Below are positions 9,818-58,610 of a stretch of 64,000 nucleotides of DNA, piece after piece. The stretch spans positions 1 to 64,000 of the forward strand of contig DATMBG010000004.1 of NCBI GenBank assembly GCA_035559535.1, read 5' to 3'. The first letter of the stretch is position 1; every line of letters starts with the position of its first letter. Source of the stretch: Candidatus Limnocylindrales bacterium (lineage in GTDB: Bacteria; Moduliflexota; Moduliflexia; Moduliflexales; JAUQPW01). The translations under genes and the position numbers were made by a program. The notes under the pieces were generated by a model. That model was not told the origin of the DNA. It did no database searches and worked only from the letters and a program-made list of their open reading frames with translations.

Positions 9818-9972
9818 GAGAGTCTCTTAAAATTAACGAATCAAGATTCAAAGGGAAGATCAGGAATTTTGAGTTCAACCCCCCCAGGTAGAATAATAGA
9901 CGTAAAAGGTAAGCAAAACTAAGGAAACAAAATACTAAGCAAATTTCTCAGGTAAGGATAATCTGGACTATT

Positions 9973-32099: not shown

Positions 32100-33560
32100 T
32101 TATTTTGCGCCTTTCCCCAGCAAGACCACGCCTATGGTTTTTAGAATGATAACAAGATCTAGAAACAAAGACCGATTTTTTATATAAAACAGATCATACT
32201 GAAGTTTTTCTACGGCATCTTCCACAGAGGATCCGTAGTGGAAACTAACCTGGGCCCAACCGGTAAGCCCGGGTTTTACCGTTGAACGGACTGCATAGTA
32301 AGGGGTTTCTTTTCTGAGAATTTCTACAAAGTAGGCTCTTTCCGGTCTCGGTCCCACCAGGCTCATATCCCCTTTGAGAATGTTAAAGAGTTGGGGTAAC
32401 TCATCAATCCGATACTTACGAATGAACTGGCCAATCCGGGTAATCCGCGGATCTTTATCGGTTGCCCAGACAGGGCCTGTGGTAGCTTCTGCTTCTTGAA
32501 TCATAGAACGAAATTTATGAATGGTGAAAGATCGATCCCATTGTCCTACCCGTTCCTGGGAAAAGATGATAGGTCCGCGACTTTCCAATTTTATCAAAAT
32601 GGCTACAATGAACATGAGCGGGGACGCCAGAATAAGCCCTAAAGTAGCCATCACGATGTCTAAACCTCGCTTGGAAGTCTCATTGAGTTTGGATTTTTTA
32701 AATCCATCGGAAAATATCAACCAGCCGGGTCGAAGTCCCTGAACCAGAATTTTACCGGTGAGCTGTTCGTAAAAATCTATGGAATCATAGATTTTCATAC
32801 CCCGTAGCTTATAATCCAGTAGGGTTTCCATTGGAAAAAATTTTCTCCGTTCCGCCAAAGCCACCACGATCACATCCGGGGTCGTATTCTTGATAACCTG
32901 ATTCAACTCGGTCAGGGTTCCCAGGGTAGGGGCCATCCAGGCGGTGTTAAATCGATTCCCCTTGATATCAGGCTTATTTTCCTGATCCGCATAACCCTGC
33001 ATGGAGAATTCATCTACAAAACCTATGAGTTGATAGCCCATATCCGGATTTGAAAGAATTTCCCGTGCAATGGTTTCTCCGATCTCCGAGGAACCTACAA
33101 TCAAAATTCGTTGAGGGACCCGTATGGTTTTATCGTAGATCAACCACCAAGAGCTGATCAAAATGATGGTAAATAGACCGGATAAAGCTAAAAGACTTTT
33201 ACTCTGGTTTAAAGAAGGGATAAAGTAATAACCTACTCCCAGAATACCTAAAGCAATGATAATGGAAGTAGAAATACCCAGAATTAAACTAAGGGTACCC
33301 AGTTTGACCCTGAAATTATACAAACTCAGGGTGCTGAGTTTTATCCTGAAATTATAAAGGTCAAATAAATAGAAAAAATACTGACTTAATAAGGTAAAAA
33401 GAATGGCATTCTGGAGGATAGATCCCTTCGGCACATAGGGCGAGGAAGAGATCTTGCTTCTCATCCATATGGCCATGTAAAAGGACAGGATGGGAATAAG
33501 GGTATTGACCAACCACAGGATTAAAAATCCATTCTTGGTATAGATCTTTTGGAATTTCAT
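32100..33560 (-). CDS. Polyprenyl-phosphate sugar-1-phosphate transferase (WcaJ/TIGR03013-like)
   Basis: 486 residues. N-terminal four to five membrane helices, then a nucleotide-binding-like middle (LIVGSSEIGETIAREI) and the C-terminal bacterial sugar transferase domain: KRGLDIVMATLGLILASPLM, SQERVGQWDRSFTIHKFRSM, RKYRIDELPQLFNILKGDMSLVGPRPE, YAVRSTVKPGLTGWAQV. It starts repeat-unit synthesis on undecaprenyl phosphate. A sigma-54-type element sits 63-78 bases upstream of the ATG. There is a 12-residue tandem duplication in the membrane region (separate entry). Confidence 0.9.
   Translation of the reverse strand: MKFQKIYTKNGFLILWLVNTLIPILSFYMAIWMRSKISSSPYVPKGSILQNAILFTLLSQYFFYLFDLYNFRIKLSTLSLYNFRVKLGTLSLILGISTSIIIALGILGVGYYFIPSLNQSKSLLALSGLFTIILISSWWLIYDKTIRVPQRILIVGSSEIGETIAREILSNPDMGYQLIGFVDEFSMQGYADQENKPDIKGNRFNTAWMAPTLGTLTELNQVIKNTTPDVIVVALAERRKFFPMETLLDYKLRGMKIYDSIDFYEQLTGKILVQGLRPGWLIFSDGFKKSKLNETSKRGLDIVMATLGLILASPLMFIVAILIKLESRGPIIFSQERVGQWDRSFTIHKFRSMIQEAEATTGPVWATDKDPRITRIGQFIRKYRIDELPQLFNILKGDMSLVGPRPERAYFVEILRKETPYYAVRSTVKPGLTGWAQVSFHYGSSVEDAVEKLQYDLFYIKNRSLFLDLVIILKTIGVVLLGKGAK
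33288..33359 (-). repeat. In-frame 36-bp tandem duplication inside the sugar transferase gene
   Basis: Encodes LYNFRIKLSTLS (residues 68-79) followed directly by LYNFRVKLGTLS (80-91). The two copies differ at two residues and several synonymous bases. It lies in the loop or edge between the second and third membrane helices. Confidence 0.85.
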
Positions 33561-33622: not shown

Positions 33623-33638
33623 GGCAATCTTAATGCCA
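33623..33638 (-). promoter_or_regulatory. Sigma-54-type (-24/-12) promoter for the sugar transferase operon
   Basis: Minus strand reads TGGCATTAAGATTGCC, matching TGGCAY-N5-TTGC with correct GG-to-GC spacing. The start codon of the sugar transferase at 33560 lies 63 bases beyond the -12 end. It sits immediately after the gene for a sigma-54-activator-like protein. Basis: motif match; not tested. Confidence 0.65.
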
Positions 33639-33745: not shown

Positions 33746-35662
33746 CTAGACGCTTTCTTCAAATCCTGGAAGACCATACTCTTTCCCTTTGTTATAAAGG
33801 GTTTGTTTTGAAATTCCTAGGATATGACCGGCTTTTTCCTTATTTCCCTGAGTGTATTCCAGCACGCGTAGAATATGTTCCTTTTCTACTTCCCTTAAGG
33901 ATTTAGGCTTGGTCTCTTTCTTAACCTTGAAATCAAAGAACTCTGGAGTGATGACTGACTTATCTGTGAGAATTATCGCTCTTTCGATGGCATTTTTTAA
34001 TTCCCGAATATTTCTCGGCCAGTCATATAAGGTGAGGGATTTCATGCAGGAGTTGGAAAAGCGGGAGATCCTCTTGGCGTATTGTTGTCGTAATTTATAA
34101 AGAAAATAACCGGCTAAAAGCGGAATATCTTCTTTCCTTTCCCTCAGGGGGGGTAAATGAAGGGGGAAGGTATTTAACCGTTCATAAAGATCTTCTCTAA
34201 AACGGCCCTCTCGGACCTCCTGTTGGAGGTTTCGATTGGTGGCTGCCAGGATTCTTATATCCACAGGAATCGGATGAGTACCTCCTAACGGCCAAATTTT
34301 CTTTTCTTCCAAAACGGTAAGGAGTTTGGCCTGGAGTTTTGGCGGAAGCTCGCCAATCTCATTAAGAAACACAACCCCTCCATGGGCCAGTTCAAATTTT
34401 CCCTTAAGGGCCTCCTTGTTGTGAAGTCCAGGATAGTTGGCTATAACTCCAAATAATTCACTCTCCAGGAGGGTTTCCGGGATGGCGGCACAGTTTACGT
34501 CTATAAAGGGTTTTCCTCTTCTTTTAGAACTCTGATGGATAGCTTTGGCAACCAAATCCTTCCCGGTCCCTGTTTCCCCGGTTATTAAAACGTTGACATC
34601 GGTATCTGCAAGTTTTTCAATAGTTTTCAAAATGTTCCTGATCCCCGGGCTTACCCCGATGATGGTACCTTCCATTTCAAGTTTATTCTCAAGCCGGGCT
34701 TTTTCATCTCGGATGGCTCGATAATCTAAATCCTTCTCTATCAGAGCAGAAATATCTGCACTGATCAGGTTTAAAAGGTTTAAGTCCCTTTCTCCAAATA
34801 GACCCTTTTGTGAGCTGGACAAATAGAGGAATCCCTGGATTTCTTTATCCCATTCCAGAGGAATGCAAATTACAGATTTTATCTGTAAACCCAGGATACT
34901 TCCGGCGGGGAGAACCCCATTTGTTTTAAATCTTTCATCTACCGAGGCATCCATCACCATCAGAGCCTTCCTTTCATCGAGAAGACGTCGAATAATGGTC
35001 TGACTGACTTTTATTTCGCCTTCCTCGGAAGGAAATTTTGCCAGACAGGTCAGGTTAGCCCCTCCCGGCTCCAATAAGACAATAAATATCCGAAGGGAAG
35101 GGTCGTGATCGGCACCCGGGTGAAGGAATTTAGCCAGCTCTTCAACGATCCCCTGTAAAGCTTCTTCCATATCCAGGGTCAGGTTTGCAAAACGACTGAG
35201 TCGGTAAAGTAGTAAAAGCCCTTCGGGATCCCCCTTTAACATTTCTACCTCTTCTTGTCTTTCGGGAGAAAGGGCATAAAAATGAACCGTTTTCATAAGA
35301 TCATTCTCATTTTCATCGGCCATAATGGTTAAGTAAGACTTCTCTACCCGGCTTTTTTTCCCCTGCTTTTGAAAAATCACCGTATAATTTCCTACACCGA
35401 TCCGGTCTTCTTCATTTACGATCCCATAATCTCTCTTCTTTCCATTGATATAGGTACCATTTTGACTGCCCAGATCCTGGAAATAATAATGACCCTCTGG
35501 ATTCGGAAAGAATATCACATGAAATCTTGAAACCGAGGGATCTGGAAGATGAATGTCGTTAAAATCATGTCTTCCGATGGAGATGGGTTTTCGTGGATCT
35601 ATCGAGATAACATTCTCGGCTTTATTAAGGTTATCCCCTTTATAAACGAACACATAATCCAT
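33746..35662 (-). CDS. FHA-GAF-AAA+-Fis transcriptional regulator, sigma-54-activator-like but lacking GAFTGA
   Basis: 638 residues. FHA domain (GRHDFNDIHLPDPSVSRFH 30-48; GSQNGTYING 65-74), GAF-like sensor (about 160-310), AAA+ domain with Walker A GETGTGKD (362-369), sensor-type FREDLYERLNTFPL, and a C-terminal Fis-type helix-turn-helix (GNKEKAGHILGISKQTLYNKGKEYGL). The loop that should carry GAFTGA reads NYPGLHNKEALKG (409-421), and Walker B is FLNEIG with Asn434 in place of Asp. The FHA domain suggests control by phosphothreonine on a partner kinase. Likely regulator of the EPS locus, but direct sigma-54 remodelling is doubtful from the motif loss. Confidence 0.88.
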   Translation of the reverse strand: MDYVFVYKGDNLNKAENVISIDPRKPISIGRHDFNDIHLPDPSVSRFHVIFFPNPEGHYYFQDLGSQNGTYINGKKRDYGIVNEEDRIGVGNYTVIFQKQGKKSRVEKSYLTIMADENENDLMKTVHFYALSPERQEEVEMLKGDPEGLLLLYRLSRFANLTLDMEEALQGIVEELAKFLHPGADHDPSLRIFIVLLEPGGANLTCLAKFPSEEGEIKVSQTIIRRLLDERKALMVMDASVDERFKTNGVLPAGSILGLQIKSVICIPLEWDKEIQGFLYLSSSQKGLFGERDLNLLNLISADISALIEKDLDYRAIRDEKARLENKLEMEGTIIGVSPGIRNILKTIEKLADTDVNVLITGETGTGKDLVAKAIHQSSKRRGKPFIDVNCAAIPETLLESELFGVIANYPGLHNKEALKGKFELAHGGVVFLNEIGELPPKLQAKLLTVLEEKKIWPLGGTHPIPVDIRILAATNRNLQQEVREGRFREDLYERLNTFPLHLPPLRERKEDIPLLAGYFLYKLRQQYAKRISRFSNSCMKSLTLYDWPRNIRELKNAIERAIILTDKSVITPEFFDFKVKKETKPKSLREVEKEHILRVLEYTQGNKEKAGHILGISKQTLYNKGKEYGLPGFEESV

Positions 35663-36106
35663 AAAAATTTTAAACTTGTAGATTTTTTCCCAGAAAGGAT
35701 CCAGTTAGATAGCAGGGAATCGACGAATTCCTTTCTACTTTCTAACTTTTTACTTTCTGTTCCTATCCTCCGTATCTTTATCCTAAATCGGGATGATTGA
35801 TTTAAACAATCTCCAAAGGTCACAATAAAAACTTATACAGGAAGAATGACGGTAATATTTTCTTTCTCATCGGATTGAGACTCAAGTTATCCTTTAAGAA
35901 TAATAATACATGAAAAAATTTCATTTACCCACTTTAATTTCGTATAGAAGCACCCTTTGTGATAAAATACCAGCTTAAAGAAATTTTTAAGCCTATCTTT
36001 AGAGCTGGATTTGTTTTAAAATTTAAATTTACATATATATTTTTTATATTTTGGTATTTTTTTGTATTTTTTCGCAGGTTATAGATTTTTTCCCACAAAG
36101 ATGAGG

Positions 36107-36149
36107 AAAAAAAAGCAGAAGGCCCCTCGCTTTCTCCACTCCTTCTGCT
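36107..36149 (-). terminator. Intrinsic terminator on the minus strand
   Basis: Perfect 9-bp stem AGCAGAAGG / CCTTCTGCT (36114-36122 and 36141-36149) with 18-base loop, followed on the minus strand by a run of seven T after the stem (plus-strand A run 36107-36113). It faces transcripts coming from the right. Confidence 0.65.
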
Positions 36150-36383
36150 TTCCTTGATTCTTCATCCCCCTTCTCAGATTAACCGTTAAAAACTGTAAAA
36201 ATAGAGTAATTCTTTAACCAATTTGGTCTTCTATCTCTTAAATTTAATTTGTTGAGGAATTTATTAAATTCATAAACCTGCCTGAAATGCTAAAATTCCT
36301 GTCTCTTATCGGATTTACAGGGGTCCGGGCCTCCTGGCGAGTTAGCAGTTTCCTCCCTTCCTCCCCACCGGGAAAGGAATCAA
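36107..36383 (-). ncRNA. Candidate sigma-54-dependent small RNA (about 275 nt)
   Basis: Inferred transcript from about 12 bases past the -12 element at 36394-36409 to the intrinsic terminator at 36107-36149. No ORF longer than about 28 codons with a plausible start is inside. The 5' part is GC-richer than its surroundings and self-complementary (CAGG ... CCTG around 36312-36335; CCTTTCCC opposite GGGAGGAAGG around 36340-36380). Alternatively a leader of the regulator gene at 35662 with an attenuator. Confidence 0.4.
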
Positions 36384-36393
36384 GGTTTTTGAA

Positions 36394-36409
36394 AGCAATA
36401 ACCATGCCA
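36394..36409 (-). promoter_or_regulatory. Sigma-54-type (-24/-12) promoter
   Basis: Minus strand TGGCATGGTTATTGCT: TGGCAT-N5-TTGC with GG and GC ten bases apart. Same TGGCAT half as the element at 33623-33638. Nearest downstream sequence is the candidate small RNA; the next gene on that strand starts 730 bases away. Confidence 0.55.
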
Positions 36410-36682
36410 GTTTTTAAGAGCCATAACCTGTTCAGTACTCGTTCTCAGACTCCGATCTCAAAGGGGCTAACCTAAGCCCTGAAGTAATTGTTTTACAGGC
36501 AAGATGCCCACACTTTTATAAAGACAAACAGGGGAAAAGTTACAAAAACAGTTTGTCAAAGATTTGAGGTAGATTTGAATGAAGGAAGGAGGCACTTTAT
36601 CCAATTTTTATACCGGACATGGGAAATTTTCTTCCCTCTAAGAATTCCTCGAAACCGCAAAATCTACCTCGACCCATTCCCC

Positions 36683-40696: not shown

Positions 40697-41215
40697 TTAT
40701 TTTATCTTGACCGGTATTCCAGCGACCATCCAGTAAACCGAATCGGCATACTGGGCTGTTAACTGATTGGCCAGTCCGGCCAGGTCCCTGAATTTCCGTG
40801 CCAGTGCATTCTCCGGGACGATTCCCCCCCCGACCTCATTGGAAACAACCAAGACCGTTGGTGAAATTTTTTTAGTTGTTTCGCAGAGACGTTTTACCTG
40901 AGATAAAACCTCTGTTTCGTTTGGATAAATTTCCATAAGGTTAAAAATAAATAACGTCAAGCAGTCTAATAGAATCACTTCGGAATCTAGAGACTCTTTT
41001 TCAAGAACCGGGATAACTTCCGTGGCTTCCTCAACAGTTTTCCAATGGGAAGGGCGATTTTTTCGATGCCAGAGAACCCGCTGCCGCATCTCTTCATCCC
41101 CTGGGATACAGGTAGCCAGATAGCAAACCTTCTGCCCGTGGGCTTCTGCTAATTTTTGAGCCTGTTGACTCTTTCCACTTCGAGCACCACCTAAAATAAG
41201 AATTAACTCACCCAT
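40697..41215 (-). CDS. cobU: Bifunctional adenosylcobinamide kinase / adenosylcobinamide-phosphate guanylyltransferase
   Basis: 172 residues from the ATG at 41215 (MGELILILGGARSGKSQQAQ), which matches family length; the longer open frame begins inside a low-complexity repeat (GVWKCGSVEVW...) and is rejected. P-loop GGARSGKS (9-16), RKNRPSHW and the C-terminal VVSNEVGGGIVPENALARKFRDLAGLANQ are CobU/CobP hallmarks. Phosphorylates and guanylylates adenosylcobinamide upstream of CobS. Confidence 0.93.
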   Translation of the reverse strand: MGELILILGGARSGKSQQAQKLAEAHGQKVCYLATCIPGDEEMRQRVLWHRKNRPSHWKTVEEATEVIPVLEKESLDSEVILLDCLTLFIFNLMEIYPNETEVLSQVKRLCETTKKISPTVLVVSNEVGGGIVPENALARKFRDLAGLANQLTAQYADSVYWMVAGIPVKIK

Positions 41216-41377
41216 AGAAATAGGTATGGGAGTATGGGGGTGTGGGAGTAGGAGTATGGGAGTGTGGAAGGGAGAATATACCTCCATACTCCCACACCTC
41301 CATACTCCCACACTTCCATACTCCCACACTTCCACACTCCCACACTTCCACACTCCCCACACTCCCACACCCGCCTT
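41216..41377. repeat. Low-complexity inverted repeat (GTGTGGGAGTATGGGAG words)
   Basis: Left half (about 41222-41271) is a plus-strand run of imperfect GGGAGTATGGG / GTGTGGGAG words; right half (about 41280-41371) is their complement (CTCCCACACTTCCATACTCC). The halves can fold into a long imperfect hairpin. It sits between cobC and cobU and makes the upstream cobU reading frame look longer than it is. Confidence 0.75.
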
Positions 41378-58174: not shown

Positions 58175-58610
58175 TTTAAATAATCAGGAACCGATTTTCC
58201 CCTCTTACATAAAAAACTGACCCCTACAGGTTTATCAACGAGTATAAAGTAAAGTCTACCCCTCCATGCAAGCAAGTGAGACAAAGAAATTTGTTGACAA
58301 AAATTCTATCGGCCAACTAAAGTCAGTTTAGACCCACAAGACCACAATAAATACTATATTTTGCCGTTTTTAACTCTTAATCTCTGAGGGATTACGAAGA
58401 ACTATGAAAAGCAGGGGAGTATGGGAGAGTTTATGCCTGTACTTTCCTAATCTCCTGTTTTTATACTCTTTGCGGACAAACCAAATCCACAGCGAAGATT
58501 TAATGCAGATATCGATAACTAAAAAGAAGTCCTTAAAAGTAACGGGAACTTATAGAGCCAAAAATAAGGTTCGAGTTCTTTTGTTTATTTGAGAGGGCAA
58601 AACTTCTATT
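58175..58610. other. Intergenic region upstream of the Nramp-like gene
   Basis: TTGACA occurs at 58294-58299 with a weak CTAAAG 17 bases on, a poor promoter candidate. The + strand frame 58404-58592 has no recognisable content. No other signal. Confidence 0.35.

Follow-up and report, generated by a model that had tools for sequence, protein, structure and literature searches.

Does the noncoding stretch upstream of the EPS regulator in this Candidatus Limnocylindrales genome encode a sigma-54-dependent small RNA (sRNA)? Qrr, GlmY, and CrcZ are sigma-54-dependent sRNAs, and a sequence-only reading of this DNA had proposed another here. We analyzed the whole 64-kb stretch of DNA (the window) and compared the locus in two genomes, the source genome (G000) and a same-genus relative, G001 (record JAUQPW010000013). 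We found no DNA matches to the locus outside the genus in the other genomes searched; the order has only four genomes. The following features define the predicted RNA.

36395-36409, minus strand: -24/-12 element TGGCATGGTTATTGC, a sigma-54 motif match (TGGCAT-N5-TTGC)
36383-36384, minus strand: transcription start predicted from sigma-54 geometry, ~12 nt downstream of the -12 box
36207-36383, minus strand: single-copy sequence (~177 nt) forming the 5' half of the predicted RNA, without a second copy in the source genome (BLAST)
36107-36149, minus strand: hairpin AGCAGAAGG/CCTTCTGCT followed by T8, the inner palindrome of a repeat (folding, shuffles, and repeat alignment)

As the earlier reading had reported, there is a -24/-12 element at 36409-36395 on the minus strand, and its GG-to-GC spacing is that of a canonical -24/-12 site. 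In Markov shuffles of its own intergenic region, TGGCAT-N5-TTGC is expected 0.0003 times. Genome-wide, we found TGGCAY-N5-TTGC at 64 sites versus 12 for a reversed-pattern control, an approximately 5-fold enrichment; 46 of the 64 sites are intergenic, and most of these 46 lie within ~340 nt of a same-strand gene start, mostly just upstream of it. The source genome has an rpoN gene and many homologues of AAA+ enhancer-binding proteins (EBPs). In G001, the element at this promoter is TGGTATGGTTATTGC, with TGGTAT. Absence of the element in close relatives had been named as grounds for refutation. We found that the TGGTAT-N5-TTGC variant is itself enriched over the control in both genomes of the genus (47 versus 2 and 46 versus 5) and that 26 of the 30 variant sites examined are intergenic. 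This suggests that the promoter was kept rather than lost in G001 and that, in this genus, the variant very probably works as a sigma-54 element. We concluded that the assignment of 36409-36395 as a genuine sigma-54 promoter, conserved in one same-genus relative, is well supported by these comparisons.

The promoter lies 720 nt upstream of the EBP gene that heads this XrtA-type EPS locus, and its leader would be far longer than those of most sigma-54 sites elsewhere in the source genome. We looked for an upstream activating sequence common to both sigma-54 promoters in the window and found none that was convincing. There are two candidate activator sites upstream of this promoter, a dyad, GGGGCTAACCTAAGCCC, at 36463-36479 (~54 to 70 bp upstream of the element) and, farther upstream, a long inverted repeat, GAGGTAGATTT...AAATCTACCTC, at 36566-36576/36660-36670. 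The relative differs by a ~70-bp insertion/deletion between the dyad and the promoter.

The hairpin that had been described as a 9-bp stem with a T-run 250 to 290 bases downstream is real. Its arms lie at 36149-36141 and 36122-36114, a run of seven to eight T's extends to 36107, and the distance from the -12 box to the stem and T-run is ~245 to 288 nt. It is the sole perfect hairpin of at least 9 bp with T6 in the 64-kb window, where 0.05 are expected, and such a terminator is expected 0.003 times in shuffles of its intergenic region. The fold is about -16 to -17 kcal/mol in the source genome and -11 to -12 kcal/mol in G001, where the hairpin has one compensatory change from A-U to G-C and two G-U pairs, has lost pairing next to the loop, and is followed by fewer T's. 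Given the motif enrichment, the shuffle expectations, and the presence of rpoN, we regard the observation of this promoter and hairpin as confirmed and not a product of chance.

Where did the hairpin come from? Searching the source genome by BLAST with the putative RNA, we obtained a 42-bp match on contig C37 (E = 1.6e-6). The matched place is the arm of a palindromic element, 140 bp in length, that carries terminal inverted repeats and has the consensus left arm CTATACTTTTGCAGTTTTTAACTGTTTATCC..GAAGG. We built a profile of the repeat from six other copies, and it matched 36206-36062 end to end (E = 3.6e-7). The same profile detects a second copy in the window, at 58354-58508 on the plus strand, and the full-length alignment of the two window copies scores 68, versus a maximum of 40 in 3,000 shuffles. 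The left-arm signal is partly circular, since a window-derived pattern was used to gather the copies; noncircular support comes from the C37 match and from matches to the inner part and the right arm, the last weak on its own (5.2 bits). Two adjoining features follow.

36062-36206, minus strand: dispersed palindromic MITE-like repeat, a degraded copy comprising a left arm, the inner palindrome, and a weak right arm (profile, pairwise comparison, and BLAST)
35663-36061, minus strand: spacer from the repeat to the regulator gene, with 94% ungapped identity to G001 versus 87% for the predicted RNA region

The family is MITE-like in that it has terminal inverted repeats, a length of about 140 to 200 bp, many copies, and no ORF. 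A flanking direct repeat of 7 bp (ATCTATA) is present in one copy of six (L129). We counted 82 matches in one member of the genus and 88 in the other, many of them to the inner palindrome only, and none in the order's two other genomes (G002 and G003); by these counts, the family is genus specific. The BLAST match, the end-to-end profile match, and the pairwise alignment together indicate that an old MITE-like insert supplied the terminator-like hairpin, as its inner palindrome, and that repeat sequence makes up about half of the proposed sRNA. Among the other copies inspected, most have no long T-run downstream of the palindrome. Elsewhere in the window, a stretch at about 41224-41400 matches the inner part of the family only. 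It is fused to the 5' end of the ORF at 40697-41368 (MGVWGVWKCGSVEVWEYGS...), and the listed start of that ORF is therefore probably too far upstream.

We then considered whether the predicted RNA itself looks like an sRNA. Conserved structure had been proposed as support, but folding revealed no excess; the energy is average (z of -0.09 in the source genome and -0.33 in G001), and no window of the RNA has strong excess structure in both species. Rfam gave no match at the gathering score, and its matches at E of ≤10 were only subthreshold, eukaryotic-type or unrelated ones. Neither Hfq (PF17209) nor CsrA (PF02599), with which the sRNAs named as precedents work, was found in the source genome, which is 95.8% complete. 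In an antisense screen against 38 translation starts in the window, the EPS and EBP starts were not outstanding. Two further candidates were rejected. One was a CsrA sponge: there are 11 GGA motifs in the source RNA and 5 in that of the relative, neither above the dinucleotide expectation, and CsrA was not found. The other was a trans-target, a 42-nt match (C37:196833) that lies antisense to a dienelactone-hydrolase-like gene in its 5' region; this match is the arm of the dispersed repeat.

The gene context described earlier, an EPS locus, was right.

33746-35662, minus strand: sigma-54 EBP with FHA, GAF, AAA+, and Fis helix-turn-helix domains, the EPS regulator (domain matches)
33624-33638, minus strand: another perfect -24/-12 element, TGGCATTAAGATTGC, whose predicted start is about 51 nt before the ATG of the first EPS gene
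32100-33560, minus strand: EpsB_2-type sugar transferase (TIGR03013, above cut-off), the first gene of the EPS operon

Along with EpsB_2, a chain-length protein (TIGR03007), an ATPase (TIGR03015), and a tyrosine kinase (TIGR03018) all scored above their cut-offs, and these four are XrtA/PEP-CTERM-associated families. The regulator scored 314.9 bits against PrsR (TIGR02915), short of the curated cut-off of 502.6, and has FHA-GAF instead. Because the perfect site at 33638-33624 immediately precedes the EPS operon and has the same sequence in G001, the operon is a likely RpoN target, and sigma-54 control of the locus is therefore coherent. Since RpoN is known to control PEP-CTERM systems (PMC9850573), finding sigma-54 promoters here is no surprise. 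The systems of that study share with this one an XrtA-type EPS locus, an adjacent EBP, and sigma-54 promoters. In Aquincola, however, the EPS biosynthesis genes appeared to be RpoN independent (PMC9850573), whereas here the site at 33638 directly precedes EpsB_2 and the regulator is an FHA-GAF-AAA+-Fis protein below the PrsR cut-off. Four-fold sites of the neighboring genes are 74 to 82% identical between the source genome and G001. The spacer at 35663-36061 probably holds the regulator's own leader or promoter; its part at 35663-36000, which contains a near-perfect AT-rich palindrome (ATGAAAAAATTTCAT, 35910-35924), is likely the promoter/operator region of the regulator.

What, then, would the promoter at 36409 produce? 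One reading is that it is a bystander, either a chance match or a place where RpoN binds without productive transcription. Some motif matches must be chance, as the 12 control sites show against the 64, and in Escherichia coli 8 of 50 intergenic sigma-54 sites are oriented away from the neighboring genes (PMC4591121). We consider this very unlikely here, given the intergenic position, the conservation as a variant that is itself enriched, and the matching second site at the EPS operon. It is still less probable that the region encodes a small protein. The claim that no ORF of useful length lies between promoter and hairpin was nearly right: a 53-codon ORF exists at 36405-36244 on the minus strand, and G001 preserves its frame despite a 12-nt in-frame deletion, with a pN/pS of 0.38. 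Its ATG, however, is within the -24/-12 element and so would precede any sigma-54 start, and a start at the CTG at ~36349 would be unusual. The substitution pattern is not frame specific, since a noncoding frame gives a similar ratio (0.34), and the translation has no family match. Judged by sequence, the locus shares with sigma-54-dependent sRNAs of the Qrr/GlmY/CrcZ/Pxr kind an intrinsic-terminator-like end within a few hundred nucleotides and no credible ORF before it.

A short noncoding sigma-54 transcript is thus plausible and likely enough, and that part of the original proposal stands. A dedicated trans-acting sigma-54-dependent sRNA of ~275 nt, with a terminator recruited from the MITE and a role in regulating EPS or the regulator, is another matter. 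The promoter and the terminator-like end are kept in two species, no coding gene lies between them, and the locus is coherent. There are also precedents. In Coxiella burnetii, CbsR3 and CbsR13 are QMITE1-derived sRNAs with promoters upstream of QMITE1 copies and ends inside them (PMC5896051), and Pxr has a predicted sigma-54 promoter (PMC5684412). Against this, the RNA has neither excess nor conserved structure, its 3' half and terminator derive from a repeat, the region is less conserved than the adjacent spacer, Hfq and CsrA were not found, and no complementarity to the EPS or EBP translation starts stands out. For these reasons, a dedicated sRNA gene is not supported by the present comparisons, and we hold this reading to be doubtful; in its full form, a trans-acting sigma-54 sRNA of the EPS locus that took its 3' half and terminator from a MITE and works without Hfq or CsrA in a poorly sampled lineage, it is unlikely. 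Less likely again is that the promoter drives an ordinary, unattenuated leader of the regulator gene and that the hairpin is a nonterminating relic. The hairpin does come from a dispersed repeat whose other inspected copies mostly lack the long T-run, and the regulator gene is on the promoter's strand, but no other terminator-like site in the window is as strong as the stem with T8, which is still recognizable in G001.

What the DNA shows is a conserved promoter motif, a repeat, a hairpin, and an EBP and EPS context; we lean with moderate confidence toward a sigma-54 promoter upstream of the FHA-GAF-AAA+-Fis EBP gene whose transcript is cut short, or attenuated, by a repeat-derived terminator to an ~275-nt noncoding RNA. 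According to this model, an EBP, possibly the protein encoded at 33746-35662, would activate RNA polymerase-sigma54 at 36409. Transcription would pass through ~177 nt of unique noncoding sequence and then into the old, degraded MITE-like repeat. We propose that the repeat's inner palindrome and T6 to T8 act as an intrinsic terminator, and thus that most transcripts would end as an untranslated RNA of ~275 nt; only read-through, if any, would reach the EBP gene 720 nt downstream. The promoter would then be an attenuated sigma-54-dependent input to the regulator, possibly an autoregulatory one. We infer promoter activity, termination, read-through, the regulatory effect, and the absence of a dedicated trans-acting role from the DNA. 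At -16 to -17 kcal/mol with T8, the hairpin may block all read-through, which would leave a sigma-54 transcript unrelated to the EBP gene.

The source genome is rich in sigma-54 sites (64 TGGCAY and 47 TGGTAT). A second EPS locus (L090, G000:C35), with a chain-length protein 59% identical, has a sigma-54 element at 9907-9921 on the minus strand (locus coordinates), upstream of its first gene in the gap before the next upstream gene. Several closely spaced divergent pairs of elements occur at L106, L013/L014, and L023/L024 (G000 contigs C41, C21, and C33). At L022, L103, and L010, intergenic sites have no ORF of at least 90 amino acids within 600 nt; some are then followed by terminator-like hairpins or repeats, and these are candidates for the same situation.

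The predicted RNA resembles CbsR3 and CbsR13 of Coxiella in having a promoter upstream of a MITE insert, an end within the insert, and an element that is repeated genome-wide. It differs in that the promoter is of the sigma-54 type, the copy is much degraded, the transcript is only predicted, and the repeat family and organism are unrelated. Like Qrr, GlmY, CrcZ, and Pxr, the locus has a -24/-12 element followed by a short noncoding stretch and an intrinsic-terminator-like end; unlike them, it has no conserved fold, no Rfam family, a repeat-derived 3' half, no Hfq or CsrA found, and no known target. MITE-derived terminators have been named as a possibility in a review (PMC10969869). If the short transcript is real, it would be a further case of a transposon-derived palindrome giving a bacterial noncoding RNA its 3' end, here under sigma-54 control and beside an EPS regulator. 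If it is not, the locus is a caution that a promoter and a terminator in an intergenic region are insufficient for an sRNA call if a repeat supplies the terminator. In both cases, the pair of sigma-54 sites indicates that the EPS locus and the regulator region of this organism are under the control of RpoN.
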